Source of the DNA: Psychrobacillus vulpis
GTDB lineage: Bacteria; Bacillota; Bacilli; Bacillales_A; Planococcaceae
Assembly: GCF_006861825.1 (NCBI RefSeq)
Contig: NZ_VDGI01000005.1
Span: 1-64,000 of the forward strand
DNA length: 64,000 nt
Reading direction: 5' to 3'
The notes under the pieces are model-generated. The model was not told where the DNA came from. It did not search any database and worked only from the letters and a program-made list of their open reading frames with translations. Positions 35,133-63,930 of this stretch are shown here, piece after piece; the stretch's first letter is position 1, and the number at the start of each line of letters is the position of its first letter. Position numbers and translations under genes: made by a program.

Positions 35133-35160
35133 ATAAAATAATTGTATACGTAAAATGTTT

Positions 35161-35287
35161 TCTAGGGTTCCGCAACGATGAAGTTGGTCTGAGACCGAGA
35201 GAAAACTCACAGCTTTGCTGTGTCACGGAAGGATAAAAGCCTGGGAGAAACTGTTTAACAGTTTTCTCTCAGGCTTTTTTGTTTTTT
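35161..35287 (+). ncRNA. Guanidine-I (ykkC) riboswitch with terminator
   Basis: Conserved ykkC-type elements in order: TCTAGGGTTCCGC, TGGTCTGAGACCGAGAG, CACGGAAGGATAAAAGCC and TGGGAGA. A strong terminator hairpin follows (35238-35275, AGCCTGGGAGAAACTGTT paired with AACAGTTTTCTCTCAGGCT) with a T-run to 35287. The aptamer 3' end overlaps the terminator stem, so guanidine binding should prevent termination and switch on the SMR exporter genes. Confidence 0.94.
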
Positions 35288-46429: not shown

Positions 46430-46565
46430 TCGCCTTGCTCCTGAGTAAGCTCGTCGCAGAAGTTAGTGCCTGTCGGAGGCCTGCGCGAAGCAGGTCATAC
46501 AGTCGTTGCGACACGATGTCGTGAACTTAGACTGTATTTCCCTAGTATAGACGCTTGCGCTTTTG
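46430..46565. repeat. Non-coding GC-rich repeat-like block
   Basis: Starts TTGCTCCTGAGTAAGCTCG, a phrase also seen at 60301-60321 and, degenerate, near 56371. It contains inverted CCTGCGCGAAGCAGG and GTCGTTGCGACACGATG and ends CTTGCGCTTTT. No gene is seen. Confidence 0.45.
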
Positions 46566-60777: not shown

Positions 60778-60894
60778 AGAAAATCGTTGAAACGGCTCCC
60801 TTTCCGTGGGCGTTGCCTCAGCCTCCTCGCTTTCGCTGTGGGGTCTTCGACTAACGCTATTCCCGCAGGAGTGTCGCTTTTTCAACGATTTTCT
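60778..60894. repeat. Family A GC-rich palindromic repeat
   Basis: Full element with both terminal inverted ends. It differs from the next copy at 61137 by about one base (CCGTGGGCG against CCGCGGGCG). Confidence 0.9.
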
Positions 60895-61136: not shown

Positions 61137-61253
61137 AGAAAATCGTTGAAACGGCTCCCTTTCCGCGGGCGTTGCCTCAGCCTCCTCGCTTTCGCTGTGG
61201 GGTCTTCGACTAACGCTATTCCCGCAGGAGTGTCGCTTTTTCAACGATTTTCT
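61137..61253. repeat. Family A GC-rich palindromic repeat
   Basis: Full element, direct orientation, 359 bases after an almost identical copy. Confidence 0.9.
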
Positions 61254-62897: not shown

Positions 62898-63587
62898 TTA
62901 ATCGAGTGGACAAAAACCGCATTTTTGTAGACCAGGAATATCTTTTGAAAAACAACAAGTCGTTCGTACTCTTGTGTTTATTAATTCTGATGGACTTTTG
63001 CCTTTTAAATAATTTGTCAAAAGGTTTTTAGAAGAAAATGATGTCCAAATGGACGAATGTTGCAGAAGGTTCCAGTCTTCGGCTGCATTTTCTGCTATGA
63101 CCGGATTTTCTAAAAAAACGTAATAATGCCATAACAAATAGCTAAAAACATTTTCCCAAAGAGTAATAGGAGAGATACTACATTGTGAGCGAAGTAGCTT
63201 AATAATGGAATGACATTGATGTTCCCATACTAGTCTTACATCTTCTATACGATCTTCTTTCACTTCTCGGAAAAACTCTAATGGTATCACTGTACTAATC
63301 GTTTTGTTTCCATACTCTTTCGTTGCAAAAAATTGAATTTGCTCAAGAGGGCCATCCCAAATTTCATCATACAAAGTCATCATATAAAACTGCATAGAAA
63401 TGAACATTCCTACTCTTCTCATGAAAAAGGATGCAGCAATTGGATCGTTCGAAGCTCCTGAAATTAGTTTTATAATAGGAAGTGCAGTATTTACATTTTT
63501 GGCATGAAAAAGAGGAGTGCTGGAAGACTCAAAATACACACTATAATTATGAAATTGTCGGATTTGATCGTTCGTTAAAGTAGTCAT
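62898..63587 (-). CDS. FhuF-type (2Fe-2S) ferric iron reductase-like protein
   Basis: A 229-residue protein whose C terminus has the FhuF signature Cys-Cys-x10-Cys-x2-Cys (TTCCFSKDIPGLQKCGFCPL), which binds the [2Fe-2S] cluster of siderophore-iron reductases. The remainder is helical (FFMRRVGMFISMQFYMMTLY, ENVFSYLLWHYYVFLENPVI), as in the family. The protein is probably cytoplasmic and releases iron from imported ferric siderophores. The ATG at 63587 is preferred over TTG at 63602. A Fur box lies 45-59 bases upstream, so iron regulation is expected. Confidence 0.8.
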   Translation of the reverse strand: MTTLTNDQIRQFHNYSVYFESSSTPLFHAKNVNTALPIIKLISGASNDPIAASFFMRRVGMFISMQFYMMTLYDEIWDGPLEQIQFFATKEYGNKTISTVIPLEFFREVKEDRIEDVRLVWEHQCHSIIKLLRSQCSISPITLWENVFSYLLWHYYVFLENPVIAENAAEDWNLLQHSSIWTSFSSKNLLTNYLKGKSPSELINTRVRTTCCFSKDIPGLQKCGFCPLD

Positions 63588-63618
63588 ACAAATAGTATAC
63601 AATTATTTCATAAAAGTG

Positions 63619-63647
63619 TTGACAATTTAATTGAAAATGATTATCAT
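63619..63647 (+). promoter_or_regulatory. Fur-controlled promoter of the candidate small RNA
   Basis: TTGACA at 63619 and TATCAT at 63642 with a 17-base spacer. The Fur box TGAAAATGATTATCA (63632-63646) overlaps spacer and -10, the classical repression position. The same box lies upstream of the divergent FhuF-like gene. Confidence 0.8.
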
Positions 63648-63653
63648 TACCAT

Positions 63654-63799
63654 ATAGAAACTTACTCTTAATGTGAGAAGGTTCTTACCAGCGACTTTTC
63701 TCCAAATTGTAGCTGATCATTCGCACACTTAACCCCCTCGACGTTAAGATAGTGCATTCATGTACTTCGGTAACCCATTTTGGTTACCGAATTTTTTTT
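63654..63799 (+). ncRNA. Candidate Fur-repressed small RNA
   Basis: From the expected start near 63654 to the T-run at 63799 (about 145 nt) there is no convincing reading frame. A hairpin CTTAAC / GTTAAG at 63728-63748 exposes a loop CCCCTCGAC, well suited to pair with G-rich ribosome sites. A strong terminator closes it. The pattern (Fur promoter, C-rich loop, terminator) resembles FsrA of B. subtilis, though homology was not tested. Confidence 0.6.
63766..63799 (+). terminator. Terminator of the candidate small RNA
   Basis: TTCGGTAACC, six-base loop, GGTTACCGAA, then eight T. Confidence 0.92.
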
Positions 63800-63901: not shown

Positions 63902-63930
63902 TTGACTTTGAAATTTACTGCATCTATAAT
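63902..63930 (+). promoter_or_regulatory. Strong promoter at the window edge
   Basis: TTGACT and TATAAT with a 17-base spacer. It reads out of the window; the leader begins with a small hairpin AGGTATGAAGTACCT at about 63952-63966. The gene it drives is not visible. Confidence 0.7.

Follow-up and report, generated by a model that had tools for sequence, protein, structure and literature searches.

The locus described here lies in a stretch of 64,000 nucleotides of Psychrobacillus vulpis DNA, called the window below. It comprises a putative small RNA standing between a divergent gene for a FhuF-like iron-siderophore reductase and a malic enzyme gene (Table 1). The protein encoded by the divergent gene scores 46.7 bits with TIGR03951, below the cut-off of that model (63.85), has no match in Pfam, and ends with CC-x10-C-x2-C, which we take to be the FhuF motif. 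A fhuF-like gene adjoins the RNA in 15 of the 18 Psychrobacillus loci and in 47 of the 51 loci from other genera (62/69 together); the loci of other genera with no such gene in the available stretch are L118, located near a contig end, L122, L123, and L132. The first-pass annotation had proposed a FhuF-type neighbor sharing its Fur box with the small RNA. The FhuF-like character of this gene is borne out, whereas the sharing is only plausible, on the grounds that the box lies upstream of the predicted −35 element of the fhuF-like gene. This gene appears to be leaderless, with TATACT or TATAAT, six bases, and then ATG present in all 14 loci checked among the 15 with the gene (63587–63604 on the minus strand in the window).

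Table 1. Positions of the features of the locus in the window
Feature	Position	Strand	Remarks
FhuF-like iron-siderophore reductase gene	62898–63587	−	Divergent; ATG at 63587; predicted leaderless
−35 hexamer, TTGACA	63619–63624	+	Putative small-RNA promoter; TTGAC in 18/18 aligned Psychrobacillus copies
Fur box	63633–63651	+	Overlaps the −10 hexamer; matches 16/19 on the plus strand, 17/19 on the minus strand
−10 hexamer, TATCAT	63642–63647	+	Putative small-RNA promoter
Small RNA (predicted)	63654–63799	+	About 145 nt; 5′ end placed from the promoter
Hairpin H1 (5′)	63656–63685	+	From a constrained fold; sequence variable
Hairpin H2	63689–63715	+	Loop UUUUCUCC at 63696–63703; most conserved element
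Hairpin H3	63723–63755	+	Inner stem 63728–63733/63743–63748; outer stem 63723–63726/63752–63755; loop CCCCUCGAC at 63734–63742
Intrinsic terminator	63766–63799	+	10-bp stem (63766–63791), then eight T to 63799

Transcription signals and fold of the RNA

The two promoter hexamers, separated by 17 nucleotides, give 11 of 12 promoter matches. Fur boxes were scored against the 19-nucleotide consensus GATAATGATAATCATTATC, and the entire window contains three matches with at most three mismatches, compared with 0.15 expected from shuffled sequences; two of the three represent both strands of the palindrome that overlaps the −10 hexamer. The Fur box is thus beyond chance, and its segment AAATGATTATCATT is identical in all 18 aligned Psychrobacillus copies. 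A single terminator was found in the region of 601 bases, against 0.1 expected, and its sequence varies within the genus, with changes on both sides at 6 of the 10 aligned pairs. No open reading frame of 40 or more residues is present inside the stretch encoding the RNA. Three small ones (20–32 residues) overlap it, and the short frames vary in both length and place across the 18 Psychrobacillus copies, three of which contain no frame of even 10 residues; a GTG frame starting with VRRFL is common to five copies (the window, G002, G003, G010, and G018), and no short frame is genus-wide. The first-pass annotation had claimed a Fur box over a TTGACA-17-TATCAT promoter, about 145 nucleotides with no reading frame, and a strong intrinsic terminator; all of this is confirmed, nearly to the nucleotide, with no reading frame that has support.

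The stretch folds better than each of 200 dinucleotide shuffles (z = −4.98), with the terminator contributing much to this result. One arm of hairpin H1 carries CCUCC in several other genera. The segment 63734–63742 (CCCCTCGAC), previously singled out as a C-rich hairpin loop, forms the exact loop of the stem CTTAAC/GTTAAG. This placement was therefore accurate, but in the minimum-energy fold of the window sequence the H3 loop is paired internally, with the upstream segment GAGAAGGUU, and the fold that leaves the loop open (−35.7 kcal/mol) is 2.7 kcal/mol less stable than the minimum-energy one (−38.4 kcal/mol). In the minimum-energy folds of 17 relatives H3 is formed in 15 and H2 in 14. The burial of the loop in the window fold may have a regulatory function, as a switch, or may only reflect how far energy models can be relied on. 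What the earlier description of H3 had missed is the second C/U-rich loop, that of H2, which is even more conserved, as well as the spread of the RNA through the family.

Conservation in the genus and the family

In a DNA search with a 191-base query, 17 of the 18 other Psychrobacillus genomes yield a long homologue, matched over 138–190 bases. The remaining one, G016, has no homologue of the small RNA in this search, and its Fur boxes are found only elsewhere. The Fur box, the H2 loop sequence CUUUUCUCC, and the H3 loop sequence CCCCCUC are present in all 18 aligned Psychrobacillus sequences, with six C residues in five of them. The first-pass proposal was to be refuted if relatives with a retained Fur box had lost the loop and the terminator; Fur box, both loops, and terminator are found together in 18 of the 19 genomes of the genus, and the proposal withstands this test. 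Both loops are kept in 14 of the 19 genera of the family.

Two covariance models, of the kind that had been suggested from the start, were built. Model R1 covers the full length; model R2 is limited to the core, leaves out the Fur box, and specifies five pairs for H2 and none for H3. R1 matches 36 of the 261 family genomes at E ≤ 0.01; one of these matches is false, that in G133, which has neither Fur box nor loops and resembles the end of a coding sequence followed by a terminator. R2 recovers 95 of the 261 genomes, belonging to 13 of the 19 genera, at E ≤ 1e-5, and inspection adds members in G160, G161, and G251, as well as in a 14th genus, g4 (G030, G031, and G032). At the loose threshold of E ≤ 1 R2 has hits in 221 of the 261 genomes, the weak end of which proved to be noise where inspected: the 20 weak hits examined, half of which lie in the family, include no homologue and no Fur box. 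No homologue was confirmed among the weak hits examined in genera g2, g5, g13, g15, and g17. In the search outside the family, covering 398 genomes drawn from the class, none of the R2 places inspected (12 + 10, with one in both sets) combines a Fur box with both hairpins. These places and the weak hits examined in g13 and g17 lack paired hairpins and, apart from a single 14/19 among them all, a Fur box. Plasmids gave no match to the small RNA, and an exact-pattern search of viral contigs found none.

Since R2 itself does not include the Fur box, the presence of such a box upstream of its hits provides an independent check. Among the 30 hits above 32 bits that were examined, 28 have an upstream Fur box of at least 14/19, the two exceptions (G073b and G028b) being second copies. 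When homology is judged by eye rather than by score, 35 of 39 cores beyond the aligned Psychrobacillus copies have a box of the same quality, 36–72 nucleotides upstream of the core, and the four cores with a weak box (11–12/19) are again all second copies. The same level of 14/19 is reached by only one of 40 non-homologous hits (39 distinct places). The family of this RNA, for which a name could not be found, extends to related genera.

The copies differ in number and arrangement. Genomes of g8 may carry two or three of them (L122, L123, and L124 in G073; L105 and L132 in G051); the L123 copy, with a Fur box of 11/19 and no fhuF in its stretch, looks as if it were otherwise controlled. In g3 (L133, L134, and L135) the RNA occurs as a tandem pair about 240 nucleotides apart, with a degenerate Fur box (12/19) in front of the downstream copy in all three genomes. 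A further C-rich segment, conserved and similar to TTTTTCACCCTTTATATTTTTCTTC, was seen by eye after H3 in g9, in g11, and in most of the g16 loci examined (L107, L129, L130, L137–L141, and L144), and in g11 a T run directly follows H3, also by eye.

When 72 copies are tabulated, nearly the same loops are seen to sit on quite different stems. RNAalifold, applied to mixed-genus alignments, finds only four pairs of H2, because the lengths of the H3 arms differ among genera, and an arm-swap test was used for this reason. For H3 in 14 genera, the mean energy of the native arms is −9.05 kcal/mol, compared with −3.24 kcal/mol for swapped ones; none of 20,000 permutations is as good, and a genus's own 3′ arm provides the best fit in 9 of the 14. 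The corresponding values for H2 are −4.7 and −3.32 kcal/mol, with 116 of 20,000 permutations as good and the own arm fitting best in only 3 of the 14 genera. Judged from these sequences, stem covariation is clear for H3 and weaker for H2.

Predicted pairing with sdhC and aconitase mRNAs

Three genes, sdhC, aconitase, and leuC, were picked as candidate targets beforehand, as genes under the control of FsrA or IsrR (PMC8216469, PMC11257911). Their pairing with the two loops was compared with that of 60 gene starts in the window (three genes by two loops, uncorrected). The leuC duplex does not rise above the background of the window gene starts, and leuC was rejected. The duplex of sdhC with H3 (−17.1 kcal/mol) is better than all 60. 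The ribosome site of sdhC reads GAGGGGG or GAGGGGGG in 18 of the 19 genomes of the genus, followed in 14 of these by TAA; in G016, the genome that has no small RNA, the site is interrupted (GAGGGAGG). A run of at least five G at this site is found in all 43 genomes with the RNA (18 of them Psychrobacillus) and in 11 of the 16 without it, 59 genomes altogether (Fisher p = 0.0009, kinship ignored); the association is suggestive only, because genomes of g14 and g18 with no confirmed copy of the RNA retain the run. Across the genome, TGAGGGGG shows no surplus before start codons, with 21 sites and the same number (21) for the backward control, and for H3 at least six of these 21 sites in the genome form a stronger duplex than sdhC does. 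On balance, sdhC is somewhat more probably a target of the H3 loop than a chance partner.

The second candidate, aconitase, pairs with H2. In each of the 19 genomes of the genus its leader contains GGAGAAAAGTC, complementary to H2, about 45–55 nucleotides ahead of the start codon, with a G-U wobble in the predicted pairing in G005, G008, G010, and G014 and a mismatch in G001. The duplex (−19.4 kcal/mol) is better than those of all 60 window gene starts, and aconitase ranks first among 40 genome TGGAGAAAAG sites for pairing with H2. This motif is commoner in the genome than its backward control (41 vs. 15), but 30 of the 40 other sites fall in same-strand open frames of at least 100 codons. G016, which lacks the RNA, keeps GGAGAAAAGTC in its aconitase leader, and the site may therefore have another role, in cis; its retention there speaks against dependence of the site on the RNA. 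Aconitase as a target of the H2 loop is graded lower than sdhC, with a probability that falls just short of even. For the two targets together the evidence points both ways.

The window belongs to a genome of 4.0 Mb whose aconitase is 95% identical to those in five Psychrobacillus records, and the next aconitases among the matches listed belong to Lysinibacillus, Viridibacillus, Ureibacillus, Kurthia, and Solibacillus, genera which, together with Psychrobacillus, we take to be Planococcaceae. A survey of 80 loci yielded 56 aconitase leaders that were counted. In the set of 30 leaders from these six genera (with one MAG included under Ureibacillus), GGAGAAAAG is present in 24, five others have G for A, which would still allow wobble pairing, and one is shorter by an A. 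The sequence TATNAT is found 2–16 bases before the site in 27 of the 30, and the GGAGAAAAG-type site should therefore lie near the 5′ end of the mRNA. A repeat, GAAAAG..CTTTTC, separated by 8–28 bases, occurs in 23 of the 30 leaders and may form a 5′ hairpin. GGAGAAAAG is also present in both Planococcus leaders and in the single leaders of Paenisporosarcina and Chryseomicrobium; it is absent from all 12 Sporosarcina leaders, eight of which have TAGAGAAAAG plus the repeat, lacking GG, and from the two Bhargavaea leaders, both of which have the repeat. The repeat in Sporosarcina and GGAGAAAAG in Planococcus weigh against the target reading. Neither GGAGAAAAG nor the repeat was found in eight loci outside the group. 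The repeat probably represents a 5′-terminal hairpin of variable spacing (for example in L344, L360, and L198), seen also in Sporosarcina, Bhargavaea, and Planococcus.

The features found in the sequence, namely a Fur-box promoter, a terminator of its own, the lack of a conserved frame, and conservation in relatives, are those of a Fur-repressed, trans-acting, base-pairing, iron-sparing small RNA, and we consider this reading of the locus likely. When iron is plentiful, Fur bound to the box over the −10 hexamer would hold the RNA off. When iron is short, the promoter would be released, yielding an RNA of about 145 nucleotides with three hairpins and a terminator. The H3 loop (CCCCCUC) would then pair with the G-rich ribosome-binding site of the sdhCAB mRNA and block translation of succinate dehydrogenase, and the H2 loop (CUUUUCUCC) would bind GGAGAAAAG where the aconitase mRNA is predicted to begin, competing with the leader's own hairpin and lowering aconitase, a direction of effect that we infer by analogy with FsrA and IsrR. 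In this manner the small RNA of a soil-type bacterium probably turns down iron-using enzymes. The first-pass interpretation as a Fur-type small RNA holds in the main, with Fur regulation and the iron response, the transcript, the targets, and the direction of effect being what we infer from the letters of the genomes.

We can speculate further that the two loops act in two modes, H3 by blocking the sdhC site and H2 by displacing the 5′ hairpin of aconitase. H2 would in this case copy the 3′ arm of the 5′-terminal hairpin common to aconitase leaders of the family and act by strand invasion, with the displaced hairpin exposing (or capping) the 5′ end of the mRNA and so controlling its decay. The two G of the leader would pair with the small RNA and not within the hairpin, as expected if H2 invades the strand. 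This elaboration is tentative, and we regard it as doubtful; if true, it would mean that iron-sparing RNAs directed at the same two enzymes arose independently at least three times in Bacilli.

The alternative that survives best accepts a real, Fur-controlled RNA and, overlapping with the reading preferred here, denies only its target part: the loops would serve general anti-Shine-Dalgarno pairing, protein binding, or sponging, with sdhC and acnA being incidental. G-rich ribosome sites are common, the six sites that outrank sdhC for H3 are in line with such a role, and so is the persistence of the aconitase motif in G016. Against it, two of the three genes chosen beforehand surpass every one of the 60 gene starts in the window, sdhC with one loop and aconitase with the other, and both target sites are conserved in the genus, so that we consider this alternative rather unlikely.

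Relation to known iron-sparing RNAs

Several known RNAs resemble the one described here. FsrA is likewise Fur-repressed, has C-rich regions, and acts on sdhC and citB (PMC8216469, PMC11257911), and a Fur-box promoter like that of FsrA is found here in the sequence; FsrA differs in its length of 84 nucleotides (PMC12871923), compared with about 145, and in this locus fhuF adjoins the RNA. The small basic proteins FbpA, FbpB, and FbpC assist FsrA. IsrR (S596, Tsr25; RF02578) has a Fur-box promoter and consists of three stem-loops and a terminator; it contains three C-rich regions, of which two are located in loops (PMC9410917); C-rich hairpin loops before the terminator are present here as well, a likeness of design and not of sequence. 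Aconitase and SDH are among the targets of IsrR (PMC11257911), as they are predicted to be here. RyhB and PrrF of proteobacteria are Fur-repressed iron-sparing RNAs that also target aconitase and sdh (PMC11257911, PMC8534726) and are Hfq-dependent (PMC9410917). In RoxS/RsaE of Bacillales, C-rich regions pair with ribosome sites, acting on central metabolism (PMC8216469, PMC12871923).

Searches with the models of these RNAs gave no support for a common family. The FsrA model (RF02273, gathering score of 80 bits) finds nothing in the window's own genome, with a positive B. subtilis control. When the Fur box is included, tsr25 scores 17.7 bits and PrrF (RF00444) 19.4 bits at the site, the latter against a cut-off of 90. 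With the box removed, and E values as high as 10 allowed, none of the tsr25, FsrA, PrrF, and RoxS/RsaE models matches the site; the tsr25 and PrrF identities were rejected because their matches vanish in this way and are owed to the Fur box. RoxS/RsaE, to our knowledge, is not under a Fur box. None of the 261 family genomes exceeds the tsr25 cut-off of 63 bits, a test in which none of the 14 control genomes is positive either. The best tsr25 score in the family is 24.3 bits, at unrelated places, and the matches below the cut-off in L063 and L064 look by eye like unrelated terminators or coding sequence. Seven loci from other genera show no match to FsrA, tsr25, or PrrF up to E = 1. No Rfam family matches the RNA in the window or in these seven loci, and model-based annotation therefore likely misses it. 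Among the matches listed in the open-license literature, the RNA family was not found described.

These results bear on a second alternative, according to which the RNA forms no separate family but is a true orthologue of IsrR of staphylococci or of FsrA of B. subtilis that has diverged strongly. The promoter, the loops, and the predicted targets are alike; the three stem-loops and terminator of IsrR, with two C-rich loops, agree with this view (PMC9410917), as does the tsr25 score when the Fur box is included, and homologues of FsrA are reported in PMC12871923 to span Bacilli, Staphylococci, and Listeria. The failure of the models at the site once the box is removed, in the seven other loci, and, for FsrA, in the genome itself, together with the lack of any tsr25 score above the cut-off in the family (a test with no positive control), all argue against orthology. 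Additionally, seven R2 hits in f9, possibly staphylococci, have no Fur box, except for one of 14/19. We therefore find orthology improbable, and placement of the small RNA among the FsrA homologues is not supported by these tests. The equivalence with FsrA put forward in the first-pass annotation remains the best reading with regard to function, but not as family membership. On the preferred reading, the RNA is best placed in the functional class of RyhB, FsrA, and IsrR, apparently without homology to them; ordinary in kind, it forms, as far as seen, an undescribed RNA family of the Fur-controlled, iron-sparing type.

Iron-sparing RNAs, which do not seem to share an ancestor, have been described in enterics, pseudomonads, and mycobacteria, as well as in B. 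subtilis and Staphylococcus (PMC9410917). A separate, easily recognized family in a large environmental group of Bacilli would fill a gap in this series, and its natural variants, in which the RNA is absent, duplicated, tandem, or devoid of a Fur box, are suited to tests of target choice.

The last alternative, that the element is not trans-acting but a leader, an attenuator, a peptide gene, or an extended promoter region of fhuF, may draw on its position between fhuF and the malic enzyme gene and on the GTG frame common to five Psychrobacillus copies, the window included, but is highly improbable in view of its own terminator, the promoter-like site of the downstream gene at 63902, the lack of a genus-wide reading frame, and the flanks of other genera (mostly about 1–1.5 kb), where the malic enzyme gene, present beside 14 of the 18 Psychrobacillus loci, is absent and the RNA and fhuF persist.

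Other elements were noted in the surroundings of these loci. A Bacillaceae-1 RNA (RF01690) is located at 1484–1550 of L136, about 200 nucleotides downstream of the small RNA, and another copy lies within the window at 46480–46546. The window also contains a guanidine-I riboswitch (35151–35249, 75.2 bits) and, by eye, two direct copies of an intergenic element of about 109 bases with inverted ends (60786–60894 and 61145–61253), which differ by about one base. In the same genome, a Fur-box-like site seen by eye at about position 1520 of L002 is found near genes resembling those of Efe-type iron uptake.
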